Assembly (NCBI GenBank): GCA_903934285.1
Contig: CAIZNN010000170.1
Span: 1-40,618 of the forward strand
Direction of reading: 5' to 3'
Source: Akkermansiaceae bacterium
GTDB lineage: Bacteria; Verrucomicrobiota; Verrucomicrobiia; Verrucomicrobiales; Akkermansiaceae
Length of the DNA stretch: 40,618 nt
Shown here piece by piece: positions 24,423-31,888 of the stretch. Position 1 is the first letter of the stretch. Every line of letters begins with the position of its first letter. The notes below the pieces were generated by a model. It ran no database searches and was not told the origin of the DNA. It saw only the letters and a program-made list of their open reading frames with translations. Position numbers and translations under genes: made by a program.

Positions 24423-27182
24423 CTAGCCGCGCGGTGTCTCATCGGCGAGGAGCAGCCAGCCCTTGTTAGGTCCGATCGGTATGGCGGCCTCTGGGGTGAA
24501 CACGCTTTCGGCCTGGAATCCCTTGCATTCCGGCGCCCACAACGTCGTCTTGCGTTCCGCCAGGCCAAGCGCCGCCCAATTGATAGAGAGCTTCACCTCG
24601 GTTTTGTGCGGTGCCCAACTGGCCAGTGCGATCAAGGTGCGGCCCTGTTTTCGATAGACCGACGCCTTGACTTGCGGGTTGTCGGTGGTCACCGGGCAGG
24701 CCGCATCCCACCAGCCGAGGTATTCCGCCGTGGCGATGCCGAACTGATCCTCGAGTTGCCAGATGGGGCGCGGGTCGCCGCTCCACGGCCAGCGCGTGCG
24801 CATGCCGAAGACCATGCCGTGCCAGGGGTTGGGTTGATCCAACATCTCACTCATGAGCCCATAGGGGATGCCGGACATTTCCACCAGCATGTACTCGGGC
24901 GACGCGTTGGCATTGAAGCCCTCGCCGTGCCAGAGGCCGTCGTAGTAGGGATAGAGTTCCATGAAGGCGATGGAGCTGTTGCTCCACTTGGCGAGGGCGT
25001 TGAAGTGGTTCCAAGAATGCATGTTGACACGGCGGCCGGGGTTGCCATCGGCGTCGAGGATGCGCCGCGCCCGTTGCATCGACTTGCGGTCCAGCGCGGT
25101 GTCGTCGATGTAGAGCCCGTCGATGCCGGCCTGTTTGACGAGGTAGTCGAGCCCTTCGAGGTAGAAATTGTTCCAGCGTGAATCGGGGGTGGTGATCACG
25201 GCGAGGTCGAGGGATTGGCGGTACTGGGGGAACTTCAGGTTCTCGCGCCAGGCCGGCACGATGTCGGAGCCGACGTGGGCGGTGAGCCACGGGTGGGGGC
25301 CGCCGCTATTGGTCACCGGCCATGCCACGCCCTCTTTGCGCGGCAGAATGATTTCGCCGGCCATGCTCTTGAGGGCGAAAAACTCCGGCAGGTTTTGTGT
25401 CAACTCGCGGGTGGTATAGTATAAGTTGGCGCGCAGGCCGGCGTCGTGCGCCTTGTGCACGAGGTCGAGGAGGTGTGGGAATGAATCCTCGTTATAAGGG
25501 TAATTGATATATGGATTGCAGAGCTGGTTGTGGTGGATCTCGATGATGCTCACGCCTTCCTTCTTGAGTGCGGCGGTGTCTGCAAGCGTCGTGCCCTGGG
25601 TGGCATGGTGGTAGCGGTCGTCGAAGTGTTGCTTTACATTGATGGGTTTGAAGGGGGTGAAATACCAGTCGATGTCGAAGTGGCAGCCGCCCGCCCCGCC
25701 GCCACCGGGCGGCACCGTCTTGGGGCCCGCGCTGGCTGTTAGGGTGGTGGTGGTGTCGGTGGTGTCGAGTCGGATGTTGCCGGCACCCCAGGATGGCGGC
25801 AACGCGAGCGGGAGGAAATCATAGTAGGCGTTGATCAGGGGGCGATGGTAGTTGCTGTCGTCCTTGAAGCGCAGCATCGCGCCGAGGTTCACGTCGCCCA
25901 TCCAGATCGCGTCCTGATGGTTCGACACATCCCACTTCCAATCGAGTCGGTCCGGGCAGCGGCCGCCTTGCAGCCCCAGGCCCATCGCGTAGCGCGCGAC
26001 GTCCTTGCGCCACGGCACCACCAGCCGCAGGTCAGCCACTTGGACCGGCGAGTTGATAGATGAGAGGTTGACGCGGAGTTTGAGGTTGCCGTCGTACTCC
26101 AATTCGCCGCGGACGAGCATGGTCATGCCGCCACCGCGGCTGGCGACGTCCCACTTGACGGTGACGGGTGAGTGCTGCCACGTGATGCTATCGGTCTGCC
26201 AATCGACGGGTTGGCCAGCGACGAGGCATTCGAGTGTTGGGGGTGCGGCGAACGCCTCCCTGCCCGCCGCCAGAATGCGGGTGTTGCTGCCGGAGAAGAA
26301 GCTGGTGAATTGCGCGGGAATGCCGTTAGGAGCGAGGGTGATGCGGCGGCCGAGGATATCTAACGAGCGGGTGGCCTCGTTGAGCTTGATAGGGGTGAAG
26401 GGTCGTGTGACTTCGGTGGTGCTGGTGCCGATGGTGGAATTGAGCCATTTGAGGCGGGCGAGGCGCCAGGCCTCCGCGGTGCCCGAATTAGTCACCGGCG
26501 CGCCCTCGACCTTGATGGTGAAGGTGAGCTGTTCCTGCAGCGGGGCGATGAGGGCCGCCCCGGGGCCATCCGCAGTGGAGGCGTTGCGGAATCGCACCCG
26601 CCCCTCGTAGCTGCCGGCGCGGGCGGTTTGGGGGATTTGGATGCCGATCCAAATCGGCATCACGGGATCGCGCCGTGGTGTGGCATATCGCGGGTCATCG
26701 AAGACCAATCCGAAGTAGGGCTCGGGATCCGATGCATTGGCTGCCAGGTGGCCGGACAGCACGGTGGTTTGCGCGTCCTTCAACGCATCGAAGAGGATCC
26801 CGCACTCAACCTTGGGCTGGGCATCTCCCGGCAGCAACCCCACTTGAAACACATAGAACTCGCCCGGTCGCGCGACACCGTGGAATTGTTGGAATTGGGG
26901 CGCCTCGCCGTCGAACCAATGGGCGGGAATGATGGCGTTGCGGATGGCGAGTTGGCGGTCCTCGCCGAACAGCCAGAACGTGGCCGGGTGTTGCTTTTTG
27001 AAGGCCTCCAGCACCCCGGGTGGCACCGCGGTCTCCATCTTGGCCATGGCCGCGGCGGGCTCAATCAAGGTGTTGACGGCTGCGGGCAGGTCCGAGGTTG
27101 CGGCCGCCGGCGCGAGTATTGGGGCCATGGCACCAATCAGCAACGGCACAAGCAGGGGGCGACGATGAAACATGGGCAGCAT
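24423..27182 (-). CDS. Secreted DUF6067/GH123-type glycosidase-like protein
   Basis: 919 residues with an N-terminal signal peptide (MFHRRPLLVPLLIGAMAPILAPA; MLPM at 27182 or M at 27173 are both possible starts). The N-terminal half is beta-rich with PVMPIWIGIQIP and RAGSYEGRVRFRNAS, as in the GH123 N-terminal fold. The C-terminal half carries barrel motifs: SIIEIHHNQLCNPYINYPYNED, GLYIDDTALDRKSMQRARRIL, AFMELYPYYDGLWHGEGF, IPYGLMSEMLDQPNPWHGMVFGMRTRWPWSG. These match the DUF6067 family of predicted glycosidases. A small beta domain closes it. The likely substrate is an N-acetylhexosamine-containing or host-derived glycan; that is inference. Confidence 0.8.
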   Translation of the reverse strand: MLPMFHRRPLLVPLLIGAMAPILAPAAATSDLPAAVNTLIEPAAAMAKMETAVPPGVLEAFKKQHPATFWLFGEDRQLAIRNAIIPAHWFDGEAPQFQQFHGVARPGEFYVFQVGLLPGDAQPKVECGILFDALKDAQTTVLSGHLAANASDPEPYFGLVFDDPRYATPRRDPVMPIWIGIQIPQTARAGSYEGRVRFRNASTADGPGAALIAPLQEQLTFTIKVEGAPVTNSGTAEAWRLARLKWLNSTIGTSTTEVTRPFTPIKLNEATRSLDILGRRITLAPNGIPAQFTSFFSGSNTRILAAGREAFAAPPTLECLVAGQPVDWQTDSITWQHSPVTVKWDVASRGGGMTMLVRGELEYDGNLKLRVNLSSINSPVQVADLRLVVPWRKDVARYAMGLGLQGGRCPDRLDWKWDVSNHQDAIWMGDVNLGAMLRFKDDSNYHRPLINAYYDFLPLALPPSWGAGNIRLDTTDTTTTLTASAGPKTVPPGGGGAGGCHFDIDWYFTPFKPINVKQHFDDRYHHATQGTTLADTAALKKEGVSIIEIHHNQLCNPYINYPYNEDSFPHLLDLVHKAHDAGLRANLYYTTRELTQNLPEFFALKSMAGEIILPRKEGVAWPVTNSGGPHPWLTAHVGSDIVPAWRENLKFPQYRQSLDLAVITTPDSRWNNFYLEGLDYLVKQAGIDGLYIDDTALDRKSMQRARRILDADGNPGRRVNMHSWNHFNALAKWSNSSIAFMELYPYYDGLWHGEGFNANASPEYMLVEMSGIPYGLMSEMLDQPNPWHGMVFGMRTRWPWSGDPRPIWQLEDQFGIATAEYLGWWDAACPVTTDNPQVKASVYRKQGRTLIALASWAPHKTEVKLSINWAALGLAERKTTLWAPECKGFQAESVFTPEAAIPIGPNKGWLLLADETPRG

Positions 27183-27325
27183 ACGGCCGGGGTGCCGGCA
27201 GTCTTGCGTGTGGCGCGGCGGCAGCGCGGTTTTGCCGGCCAGTGCGTTGCGCATCCGGGCCGCAGCTGGGTTCATCGCGGATTGGCTTTGCGGGCCGGGG
27301 CAAATTTGCATAGGTTGCCCGCGGT

Positions 27326-29215
27326 TTGATTGAAGTCGCTTTTCACCGCGGGTTGCACCTGCCTGAGCTTGACCTGTGGCTTGATCCACAGGACCCGAAG
27401 CCGTGTGCGTTTGTATCGCATGCGCACGCCGACCACGTGGCGCGGCATGATTTGGCGCTGTGTTCGGATGTCACCGCGGGCTTGCTGCGGCGGCGGTTCC
27501 GGCTGCGCGACGGGCAACTCGCAGCGATGGGGTTTCACGTGCCGTGGGAGCGGGACGGATTCCGGTTGCGCCTGTTGCCGGCCGGGCACATCGCCGGCTC
27601 GGCGATGCTGCACGTCACCCGGCTCAAGGATCAGGCGAGTTTGCTCTACACCGGGGATTTCAAGTTGCGCCGCAGCCGCACCGTCGAGCCGGCGGGCTTT
27701 CTAACTGCGGAGACGCTGGTCATGGAAACCACCTTCGGGCTGCCGATGTTTGCCTTGCCCAGCCCGATGGAAGTCGAGTCCGCGTTGCTGCGTTTCGTCC
27801 ATGATGCCATCGCCGATGGCGAGACGCCGGTGCTGTGCGCCTACGCCCTGGGCAAGGCGCAGGAGGTGCTCGCCATGCTCGCCGAGCAGGAAATCCCCGC
27901 CTTGCAATACCCGGCGGTGGCGGCCATGACCCAGGCCTGCCGCGAGTTGGGCGTCGCCTTGCCCGAGCCGCTGGTCTTCGAGGGTTACGCCTTGCCCGGC
28001 CACGTCGTGGTGGCGCCGCCCAGCGCGCTGCGCGCGAATTTGCTGCGCGGCTTGAAAGCCAAGCGCACCGCCATGCTTACCGGTTGGGCGTTGCAGGCGG
28101 GTGCCAAGTATCGTTACCGCGTCGATGAGGTGATTCCGTTGTCCGACCACGCGGACCACCCGGGGTTGTTAGAATGTATCCAACGGGTGCGCCCGCGGCG
28201 GGTCATCACGGTGCATGGGTTTGCCCGCGAGTTTGCCGCCGAACTCCGCGCCAAGGGGCTCGATGCGTGGTGCGCCATGGGCGATGACCAACTCGAACTC
28301 TCCATCGGACAAGTGGCGCAACGGCCGCGCGGCGGCAATGTGCCGCGGCAGGCGCGGCCGATTTGCGCGTTGGCGGACTTCAGCGACCTGTGCCGGTTGG
28401 TCGCGGAAACCAGCAGCCGCGTGGCCAAGACCAAGTTCATCGCCGGCTATTTGCGCGGCTTGGGCAGTGATCCGGAGTTGCGCCTCGCGGTGCGTTGGCT
28501 CAGTGGTCACGCGCTGGCGCCTGGCGCTGCGGCGCGGGCGTTGCGTGAGGGCGGGCTGACGGTGCGCCATGCCATTCTCGCGTTGCCCGGGGCGCGGGCC
28601 GAACGCTATCACGAGTTGTTACTAGCCAACAAAGACGTGGCGCGCAGCGCAAGGCTGGTGCTGCAGGAAATCCCGCTCAAGCCCGAGTCGCTGGACTTGT
28701 CCGGGTTGGAGGCATTTTTCCTCACGCTGGAGCAGACTGCGGCGCCACTGGACCGCATCACGTTGCTGGCCACCCGTGTGGCCACCCTTCATCCGACCGA
28801 AAGCGAAACCCTCATCCGGCTCCTCGGCATCGACCCCCGCCAAGGTGTCGAGGACGGCGTCATCGAAGACGCCCTAGCCGCAGCCTTTGCCGCCGCTCCG
28901 GCTGCGGTCCGCCATGCCCACCGGAGCACCCGCGATCTAACGGAAACGGCGCTGCTGGCGCGCCACGCCCGCCTGGAGCAGGCGGCCGGGTCGCCCGATG
29001 CTGACAGTTTGGCACAGGGTTTGGCAACGGACGGCTCCGGGCAGGAGGCCCGGGCCACGGTGGCGCGGGCATCCTGCCCGCCGCCATTCTTGCTTGCCTT
29101 TCCCGCACTGACAAAACCGCCAGGGTTGGCCGGGTCGCCCACGGTGCCGGCGGTGCCGGCGCCGGCCGATGCCGGCGCAAACGCCGCGGACGACGGGACG
29201 TTTTGCTTGGATTAG
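27326..29215 (+). CDS. MBL-fold exonuclease fused to a truncated ATP-dependent DNA ligase N-domain
   Basis: 629 residues, with a TTG start at the point where the family begins. Residues 1-325 form the ligase-associated exonuclease of metallo-beta-lactamase fold: HAHADH at 32-37, LLPAGHIAGSAML, YTGDFK and SDHADH supply the metal ligands. From about 345 to 560 the sequence (FSDLCRLVAETSSRVAKTKFIAGYLRG, LLGIDPRQGVEDGVIEDALAAAF) fits the DNA-binding domain of an ATP-dependent ligase. The nucleotidyltransferase domain (KxDGxR and OB fold) that should follow is absent. The frame passes through a REP-like repeat near residue 579 and ends in an Ala/Pro-rich tail, and no ligase sequence lies in the next 145 bp. 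The exonuclease may still work; the ligase part cannot. Confidence 0.8.
   Translation: MIEVAFHRGLHLPELDLWLDPQDPKPCAFVSHAHADHVARHDLALCSDVTAGLLRRRFRLRDGQLAAMGFHVPWERDGFRLRLLPAGHIAGSAMLHVTRLKDQASLLYTGDFKLRRSRTVEPAGFLTAETLVMETTFGLPMFALPSPMEVESALLRFVHDAIADGETPVLCAYALGKAQEVLAMLAEQEIPALQYPAVAAMTQACRELGVALPEPLVFEGYALPGHVVVAPPSALRANLLRGLKAKRTAMLTGWALQAGAKYRYRVDEVIPLSDHADHPGLLECIQRVRPRRVITVHGFAREFAAELRAKGLDAWCAMGDDQLELSIGQVAQRPRGGNVPRQARPICALADFSDLCRLVAETSSRVAKTKFIAGYLRGLGSDPELRLAVRWLSGHALAPGAAARALREGGLTVRHAILALPGARAERYHELLLANKDVARSARLVLQEIPLKPESLDLSGLEAFFLTLEQTAAPLDRITLLATRVATLHPTESETLIRLLGIDPRQGVEDGVIEDALAAAFAAAPAAVRHAHRSTRDLTETALLARHARLEQAAGSPDADSLAQGLATDGSGQEARATVARASCPPPFLLAFPALTKPPGLAGSPTVPAVPAPADAGANAADDGTFCLD
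29060..29085. repeat. REP-like palindromic repeat, copy 2
   Basis: The same 26 bp as 6-31 apart from one base, with the same 7-bp stem. Here it lies inside the open frame of the exonuclease-ligase gene, read as VARASCPPP, just where the ligase catalytic domain should begin. Confidence 0.75.
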
Positions 29216-30614: not shown

Positions 30615-30913
30615 GGTGCAAGCTTCACAGGCTGACGTTGGGCTTCATGGCGATGGCTTCGGCCGCGGCAAAACCCGCCAGTGCCATGCCGGCCATAGCT
30701 CGTTGTCCGGATTCCTTGAGAGGCGTTTGAGCATGGCCGTTACAAATGGGTTGTAGCCAAGGCTGCCCGCTGATGCAAGTGGAAGCAGTGGGAAGTTTTG
30801 TAAATGACCGGAAATGCGGTGGCTGGCCGGCAGTGGCCCCAGCCGTGGAAGGAGGTCGGGTGATTTGCAACACGGCGGTTGCGCTGGGGCAGGGGAGTCG
30901 CTACCCTCGCCGC

Positions 30914-31888
30914 GTGATCCGCCCGGTCGATGTCCTGCTTGAGTTTCTCCACGCCCAGCAAGCGCGGGGGATGAGCCATTTGCATTTGGATCCCGACGCC
31001 CGCACCGGCCTGCGCGCGTTGAGCGAACGGCTGCGGGCCGGACCACCAAGCGCGCCGGCACCCGCGCCGGGCGTGGCACCCGCGCCGGGCGTGGCACCCG
31101 CGCCGGGCGTGGCACCCGCGCCGAGCGTGGCACCCGCGGCACCTCCTCGCGGCGCGCGGTCGTTGCCACCAGCGGCGGATATGGCGGATATGGCGGATGT
31201 GGCGGATGTGGCATCGCCGCGCCCGCCGGCACCCATGCCGCGGTTGGTCATTGAAGGGACCACGGCTGCCGACCGCCTCGCATCGTTGCGCCGGCAGGCG
31301 GAAGCTTGGGCACCCGCGCTGGCGTTGGGTAGCTTGCGCAAGGTGATGGTTTTCGCCACCGGCAGTCCCGAGGCCCAAATCATGTTCATCGGCGAGGCCC
31401 CGGGCTATGAGGAGGAAAGAAAGCGCGAGCCATTCGTCGGCCTTGCCGGCCAACAGCTCGACAAAATCATCAAAGCCATGGGGTTGGCGCGGACCGATGT
31501 CTATCTTTCCAGCATCGTCAAGTTTCGCCCCGTCACCGCCAACCAAACGACTAACAACCGCCCGCCGACCTCCGAGGAGATTGCCGCCTGCCTGCCCTTG
31601 GTGCGGGAAGAAATCCGCATTATCCGCCCGCAATGCATCGTCGCCTTGGGCGGCAGCGCCGCCGACGGCTTGCTCGGCCCCGGTGGCGACATTCCGTCGC
31701 GGCGCGGGTTATGGCACGATTTTGACGGTGTGGCGGTGCGGGTGACCTATCATCCCAGCCATCTTTTGCGCACCACCAATGACACTCAAACCAAGCGCAT
31801 GGTGTGGGAAGACATGTTGGCCGTGATGGAGCGAGCCGGCTTGCCGATCTCCGAGAAACAACGCGGGTTTTTCCTGCCTAAAACCTGA
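30914..31888 (+). CDS. Uracil-DNA glycosylase superfamily protein lacking most Fe-S ligands
   Basis: 324 residues from a GTG start, chosen because residues before it are unlike the family. Residues 1-40 form a short helical lead (VLLEFLHAQQARGMSHLHLD), followed by a repeat-coded linker. The catalytic part has motif A GEAPGYEEERKREPFVGLAGQQLDKIIKAMGL and motif B TYHPSHLLR, which mark family 4-type enzymes. The four cysteines that bind the iron-sulfur cluster in that family are mostly absent. The KCRPP position reads KFRPV, no CxxC precedes the GEAPG, and only the Cys in EIAACLPLV remains. It probably excises uracil without a cluster. The 299 bp upstream (30615-30913) hold no other gene. Confidence 0.8.
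   Translation: MIRPVDVLLEFLHAQQARGMSHLHLDPDARTGLRALSERLRAGPPSAPAPAPGVAPAPGVAPAPGVAPAPSVAPAAPPRGARSLPPAADMADMADVADVASPRPPAPMPRLVIEGTTAADRLASLRRQAEAWAPALALGSLRKVMVFATGSPEAQIMFIGEAPGYEEERKREPFVGLAGQQLDKIIKAMGLARTDVYLSSIVKFRPVTANQTTNNRPPTSEEIAACLPLVREEIRIIRPQCIVALGGSAADGLLGPGGDIPSRRGLWHDFDGVAVRVTYHPSHLLRTTNDTQTKRMVWEDMLAVMERAGLPISEKQRGFFLPKT
31058..31211 (+). repeat. In-frame tandem repeats in the glycosylase linker
   Basis: Four copies of an 18-bp unit coding APAPGV (31058-31129), then four copies of a 9-bp unit coding ADM or ADV (about 31175-31210). Both preserve the reading frame, so changes in copy number would alter only the linker length between the lead helices and the catalytic domain. 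Confidence 0.85.

Follow-up and report, generated by a model that had tools for sequence, protein, structure and literature searches.

A putative DNA nuclease that keeps a ligase DNA-binding domain, probably derived from a nuclease-ligase fusion, in a genus of Akkermansiaceae

In a contig of an Akkermansiaceae bacterium (CAIZNN010000170.1 of assembly GCA_903934285.1), one open reading frame joins a nuclease to the DNA-binding domain of an ATP-dependent DNA ligase and ends in a tail with a palindromic repeat, where the catalytic domain of the ligase would be expected. The window, by which we mean the whole analysed stretch of 40,618 nucleotides, raises the question of whether this is a broken gene, one half of a split enzyme or a nuclease that can do without its ligase. 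We consider it likely that its product is a functional DNA nuclease which still carries the DNA-binding domain (DBD) of a ligase and derives from an ancestral fusion that lost the ligase catalytic domain. Because the nuclease and DBD part appears to be kept by selection in relatives, the protein probably works in repair as a nuclease, and the gene is probably not a broken one.

The coding sequence (27326..29215, + strand, stop codon included) is open throughout from a TTG start and encodes 629 amino acids. It comprises a nuclease domain of the MBL/beta-CASP type (aa 1-328, 27326..28309, +; delimited by TIGR04122, RMMBL and a confident model), an all-helical N-terminal ligase DBD (PF04675, aa 346-553, 28361..28984, +; Pfam, model and omega) and a tail (aa 554-629, 28985..29212, +) in which the model pLDDT is below 50 from aa 558. 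In the Pfam search, RMMBL matched aa 263-312 with 30.7 bits (cut-off 21.6) and DNA_ligase_A_N (PF04675) matched aa 350-518 with 38.7 bits (cut-off 24.6), so that the open frame and Pfam confirm the preliminary description, which had placed an MBL exonuclease and a ligase DBD in one frame. Among the Pfam domains that define the LigB class, the window protein carries the N-terminal DBD and lacks both the adenylation domain PF01068, which bears the KxDG motif I, and the OB domain PF04679.

The NCBIfam profile of ligase-associated exonucleases, TIGR04122, matched with 198.5 bits, which is below its curated family cut-off of 325. All ten nuclease residues examined (H32, H34, D36, H37, H88, D111, D274, H275, D277 and H297) are present in the window protein, and they are shared without exception by the reduced or dead homologues (14 of 14) and by the longer ones (25 of 25). 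They include HxHxDH (32-37), H88, D111, H275 and H297, which we take to be the metal-binding residues of MBL/beta-CASP enzymes. A model of the window protein, built with 23 sequences, is for the most part confident in the nuclease fold and in the helical fold of the DBD, and has a disordered tail. Its nuclease half resembles CPSF73-type and SNM1A/Apollo structures (Foldseek E of about 1e-11 to 1e-15 among the matches listed); the nuclease domain dominates the matches, and no ligase DBD occurs among the best 50 listed. To our knowledge, nucleases of the SNM1A/Apollo and CPSF73 types carry no ligase DBD. Two neighbouring frames in the window were also recorded. A large frame for a GH123-type glycoside hydrolase (24423-27389, -; PF19543, 730 bits), taken as an open reading frame, extends over the beginning of the nuclease gene, and a uracil-DNA glycosylase (30746-31888, +; PF03167) has an Ala/Pro repeat region ahead of its catalytic domain.

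A fusion from Opitutus terrae was reportedly described by Ejaz and Shuman in 2018. Full-length metallonuclease-LigB fusions from Opitutus terrae and from Dry Valley metagenomes are already in print; according to the accessible parts of that source, the ligase half was active, the nuclease half was insoluble, and what the nuclease does in the LigB pathway, whether fused or free, was stated as not yet determined (PMC10140301). Like these proteins, the window protein has an N-terminal RMMBL/MBL nuclease followed by DNA_ligase_A_N, but it is without the adenylation and OB domains, whereas the accessible parts of the source treat full fusions only (PMC10140301). By profile, the nuclease is also of the same family as the TIGR04122 exonuclease of the LigB/Lhr/phosphoesterase operon, from which it differs in its score below the cut-off, in having no intact ligase with it, and in its genome, where no TIGR04121 (Lhr helicase) match exceeded the cut-off. 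A linkage to this helicase was considered and dropped: TIGR04121 scored over its cut-off in four of 16 genomes, two with a reduced gene (G072, G078) and two with an intact one (G069, G077), and showed no pattern. Titles and abstract openings of the open-access papers listed in our searches mentioned neither reduced or pseudo-ligase forms nor clamp binding for these fusions, which is weak evidence of absence.

The genus lies within the Akkermansiaceae near Luteolibacter, and its named near relatives are Akkermansiaceae including Luteolibacter pohnpeiensis. At E<=1e-20, 46 of 73 genus genomes, the one of the window included, had a hit (33 of the 48 more complete ones), and 27 of 73 had none (15 of 48). 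Among the 46, an intact fusion is encoded in 23, with all four motif signatures examined in the catalytic half (for G093, the contig stops short of the 5' end of the gene); in the full-length relative G062, Pfam finds RMMBL, A_N, A_M and A_C in that order. One genome, G022, has an intact motif I and is missing most of the OB domain; a 29-residue stretch from near the end lies in another frame past the stop, and this OB loss may be an assembly error. Three further proteins (G075, G030 and G033), here called pseudo-ligases, have no OB match and lack the signatures of motifs I, IV and V, and the DGE signature is absent in G075 and G030 as well. Nuclease and DBD only are found in 11 genomes (G000, which is that of the window, G087, G019, G029, G072, G091, G086, G080, G078, G082 and G016), and the nuclease alone in three (G007, G070 and G073), with no ligase in the gene-flanking stretches searched. 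Five genes were left unclassed, four of them at or near contig ends (G060, G064, G008 and G027). The fifth, from G010 (L054:7338-10030, G010:C71), is a fusion with a frameshift that breaks it in two near residue 478, either an assembly error or a pseudogene.

The proteins of nuclease and DBD end at 562-582 aa, with the exceptions of the window protein and of G016 (716 aa), and the sister frames of the window protein measure 562 aa (G019 and G029) and 575 aa (G087). In G016, a Holliday-junction resolvase domain of the RuvX kind (PF03652, 125.5 bits) follows nuclease and DBD in a single frame (L045:8424-10571, -), which may be a fusion or an overlap. A tblastn search downstream of the stop in the 14 genomes with reduced or dead genes recovered no ligase remnant in 1549-4000 bases each, or in the 369 bases present after the stop in G075. 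A sample of the order had a hit in 155 of 239 genomes; frames outside the genus, taken from among the matches listed, included G112 with 760 aa and G222 with 640 aa and two stops. The preliminary description was right in seeing a nuclease-ligase fusion without its former ligase catalytic half, and the break is common to sister species, with 11 genus genomes in two clades ending after the DBD. An assembly error and homologues with a natural end at this position had both been considered as ways in which the description could fail. Such homologues exist. Because the sister genomes also stop just after the DBD, the truncation is not an assembly slip in the genome of the window.

A tree was built from 43 nuclease-DBD sequences of 51 extracted rows, with G022 grouped as full-length despite its OB deletion. 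The 11 reduced proteins form clade A (the window protein, G087, G019 and G029), which adjoins the pseudo-ligase G075, and clade B with the other seven. Support is 100/100 for clade A with G075, 85/53 for clade A without it and 97/80 for clade B. Since clades A and B as a single clade without G075 are rejected (p-AU 5.4e-6), two or more separate deletions of the catalytic domain are probable, with a count that is uncertain because clade A without G075 is weakly supported. Clades A and B and G075 together make up one side of a weakly supported branch (70/95.6), and inactivation may predate both deletions. G030 and G033 represent separate inactivations, and three changes are forced for the dead group. 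The nuclease-only proteins of G007, G070 and G073 fall within clade B in a quick nuclease-only tree (SH-aLRT 99; nine rows, no bootstrap, long branches), in which G064, from a contig end, also carried the nuclease-only label.

Selection was analysed by purpose-written codon models on 39 of the 51 rows, again with G022 among the full-length proteins. The omega of the DBD was 0.126 on clade-A branches and 0.131 on clade-B branches, where omega=1 costs 129 and 219 log units, respectively; both sets of branches take in stems that are possibly older than the loss, and the clade-B value is rough because synonymous change is near saturation there. The background in full-length proteins was 0.061-0.065. 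For the pair G019/G029, which lies wholly after the loss, omega was 0.131 and neutrality was rejected by 26.6. Estimates from IQ-TREE were similar (0.139 for A, 0.148 for B), and five full-length sets ranged from 0.029 to 0.124, the highest being close to A. The nuclease gave 0.083 (A) and 0.073 (B) versus about 0.055 in the background. Judged from these substitution patterns, nuclease and DBD are still under purifying selection after the loss of the ligase.

The DBD nevertheless tends to look relaxed, as it evolves faster than in full-length proteins. Between 42 and 54 of the 69 sites that are near-invariant in the DBD of full-length proteins are kept in the reduced ones. Clade A and some clade-B proteins show erosion of the ligase motif TGDLRIGL (aa 501-508). 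Because of this faster evolution and the erosion of the motif, DNA binding by the DBD may be altered or lost. A rival explanation goes further and holds that only the nuclease matters, the DBD staying for solubility or folding with its DNA binding gone. It would account for a DBD omega about twice that of full-length relatives, for the eroded motif and for the nuclease-only relatives within clade B, but it fits poorly with an omega far below 1 and with the number of near-invariant sites retained, and we regard it as rather unlikely.

The same signs of relaxation could mark a decaying pseudogene, a gene on its way out after the loss of the ligase, and the whole gene is dispensable given the three nuclease-only genomes in clade B and the 27 hit-free genomes of the genus. 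A pseudogene would, however, hardly have kept its frame open across a long divergence in 11 species, together with all ten nuclease residues examined and a strong rejection of omega=1 that includes the post-loss pair, and this explanation is improbable. In the three pseudo-ligases, foreground omega was 0.118, 0.24 and 0.05 (neutrality rejected by 10.0, 5.0 and 14.5). Since the foreground branch covers time on both sides of the inactivation, these values are no proof that the dead domain is under selection. Omega was 0.021 and 0.104 on control branches of active relatives, and G030 alone clearly exceeds its background (dlnL 5.5).

On the preferred reading of a working nuclease with a retained DBD, an ancestral nuclease-ligase fusion would have lost its catalytic domain; stepwise intermediates are seen in G022 and in G075, G030 and G033. 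The sequences show nuclease and DBD under purifying selection after the loss, with the nuclease residues intact, and an in-frame repeat in the disordered tail in the genome of the window, which the other members of clade A lack in their genes. The DBD might guide the nuclease to DNA that is duplex or damaged, and gaps left by the nuclease might be sealed by the NAD+-dependent LigA, which is present in all 11 genomes with nuclease and DBD. More speculatively, the beta sliding clamp could bring the family to DNA, by way of a DLF loop in full-length proteins and of a motif at the C-terminus in clade B. Such a genus, with a ligase half in stepwise decay and continued selection on nuclease and DBD, is a natural experiment. 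It points to a nuclease able to act on its own, and further supplies clamp docking as a testable route and a set of pseudo-ligases.

The preliminary description had offered, as one possibility, that a gene at another locus supplies the ligase half as a separate partner of the window protein, and an adenylation domain without its N-domain was sought accordingly. The sole PF01068 match in the genome of the window is a small ligase of 332 aa on another contig, with no N-domain match (L001:414-1964, -, G000:C69; it adjoins a frame that by eye resembles RadC), and short PF01068 frames occur in G019, G078, G087 and G072. These findings leave room for a split enzyme, but six of the 11 genomes with nuclease and DBD (G029, G091, G086, G080, G082 and G016; 90-96% complete), the sister G029 among them, have no PF01068 match at E<=0.001. 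A partner is ruled out at this threshold for those six; a separate ligase partner is unlikely judging from the gene content, and a split enzyme as the explanation of the window gene is very improbable.

The palindrome itself starts just past the DBD. It had been placed at 29060-29085, which is its second arm only: the core spans 29033..29085, with arms at 29033-29058 and 29060-29085 that are 85% complementary. It belongs to a dispersed repeat whose long form, delimited by genome copies of varying length, is inserted in frame at 28992..29117 (+; aa about 556-598). The description of the repeat is based on its copy number and in-frame placement, as assembled. In the genome of the window, the palindrome gave 88 alignments at E<=0.01, the query itself counted; after merging, these amount to 52 distinct places spread over 37 contigs, and the best other copy is a 90% match to 28992-29117. 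In the same frame, the repeat also lies within the PHP domain of DnaE2 (L265, G000:C241), where it is an insertion relative to G072, within the SNF2 domain of an SNF2-family helicase (L270, G000:C101) and within a glycosyltransferase (L267, G000:C107), and the peptides read from the in-frame copies are near GGGQDARATVARASCPEPS. A 13-base direct repeat at 28984..28996 (+) and 29128..29140 (+) has a spacing of 144 bases, or 48 codons; the two copies may belong to longer copies of the element, so a target duplication is unproven. Palindromic elements inserted in frame are known from Rickettsia as RPEs. The likeness lies in a dispersed palindrome read in frame within protein-coding genes, but the genome of the window belongs to another phylum.

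The genes of G087, G019, G029 and G075 are free of the repeat, and G029 has one copy about 3.2 kb downstream of the gene. A deletion of the catalytic half linked to the repeat, as first suggested, does not hold, since G087, G019 and G029 end at the same place repeat-free. A deletion of this kind or an assembly error in the genome of the window alone, suggested by the palindrome right after the DBD and by an assembly in 282 contigs, is extremely improbable in view of these three relatives and of the lack of ligase remnants in the DNA searched downstream of the 14 stops. Because the sisters end there without the repeat and a second clade lost the same half, a later insertion in frame is the simplest reading. 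Most likely, the protein had been shortened before the repeat arrived in its tail, and the frame stayed intact.

A further idea concerns the sliding clamp. The motif that binds the bacterial clamp is given as QL(S/D)LF (PMC9690074) and as Q-L-x-L-F, usually C-terminal (PMC4549789), in the accessible parts of these sources. In 71 distinct full-length Verrucomicrobiota sequences, the tripeptide DLF is near-invariant (D in 67, L in 70, F in 71), 23 of them having the form QxDLF. It sits in an adenylation-domain loop that is variable and rich in gaps. In the G062 model the tripeptide lies within 662-679, one of eight stretches with pLDDT <50, and all three dead ligases keep it. Among six DnaE-type frames, QVS[LM]F, presumably the clamp site of DnaE, occurs in the four complete DnaE and is absent from one cut frame and one DnaE2. 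The tails of clade B are otherwise without clear likeness, and five of seven contain [QE]L[SP][LF] (G072, G091, G086, G080 and G082). Shuffling of 10 of the 11 tails, G016 being excluded as its frame runs on into RuvX, gave P 1.5e-9 for [QE]L[SPDA][LF] and 1.6e-6 for the form starting with QL (three of 10 tails), where the patterns were chosen post hoc and the tails are kin by descent. G019, G029 and G016 have no clamp-like tail motif, and G078 has DLGVF. The C-terminal TFCLD of the window protein (29198..29212, +; TLSLD in G087) fits QL(S/D)LF poorly and bears a weak resemblance only, so that its tail has no convincing motif.

Tentatively, the fused nuclease-ligases of these Verrucomicrobiota might be clients of DnaN, the full-length proteins through a QxDLF-like disordered loop of the ligase domain and clade B through a new C-terminal motif, with selection acting to keep the nuclease recruited to the clamp rather than to keep ligation; from the motifs this is possible, but on balance doubtful. 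If true, the dead ligases G075, G030 and G033 would be pseudo-enzymes retained as docking platforms.

An observation apart concerns LigA, which has an in-frame insertion after TGDDxTHNVRTIRS in G091 (L271:153-3113, -), G087 (L272:1-3054, +) and G078 (L273:175-3111, -). Compensation by this insertion for the lost ligase half was considered and rejected, as it occurs alike with reduced and intact fusions. LigA matches that are split at the same place within one frame suggest the insertion in 16 of 37 genus genomes searched, and in G091 and G087, the two that were scanned, it matches Kinase-PolyVal (PF18762) with 41.3 and 34.4 bits.
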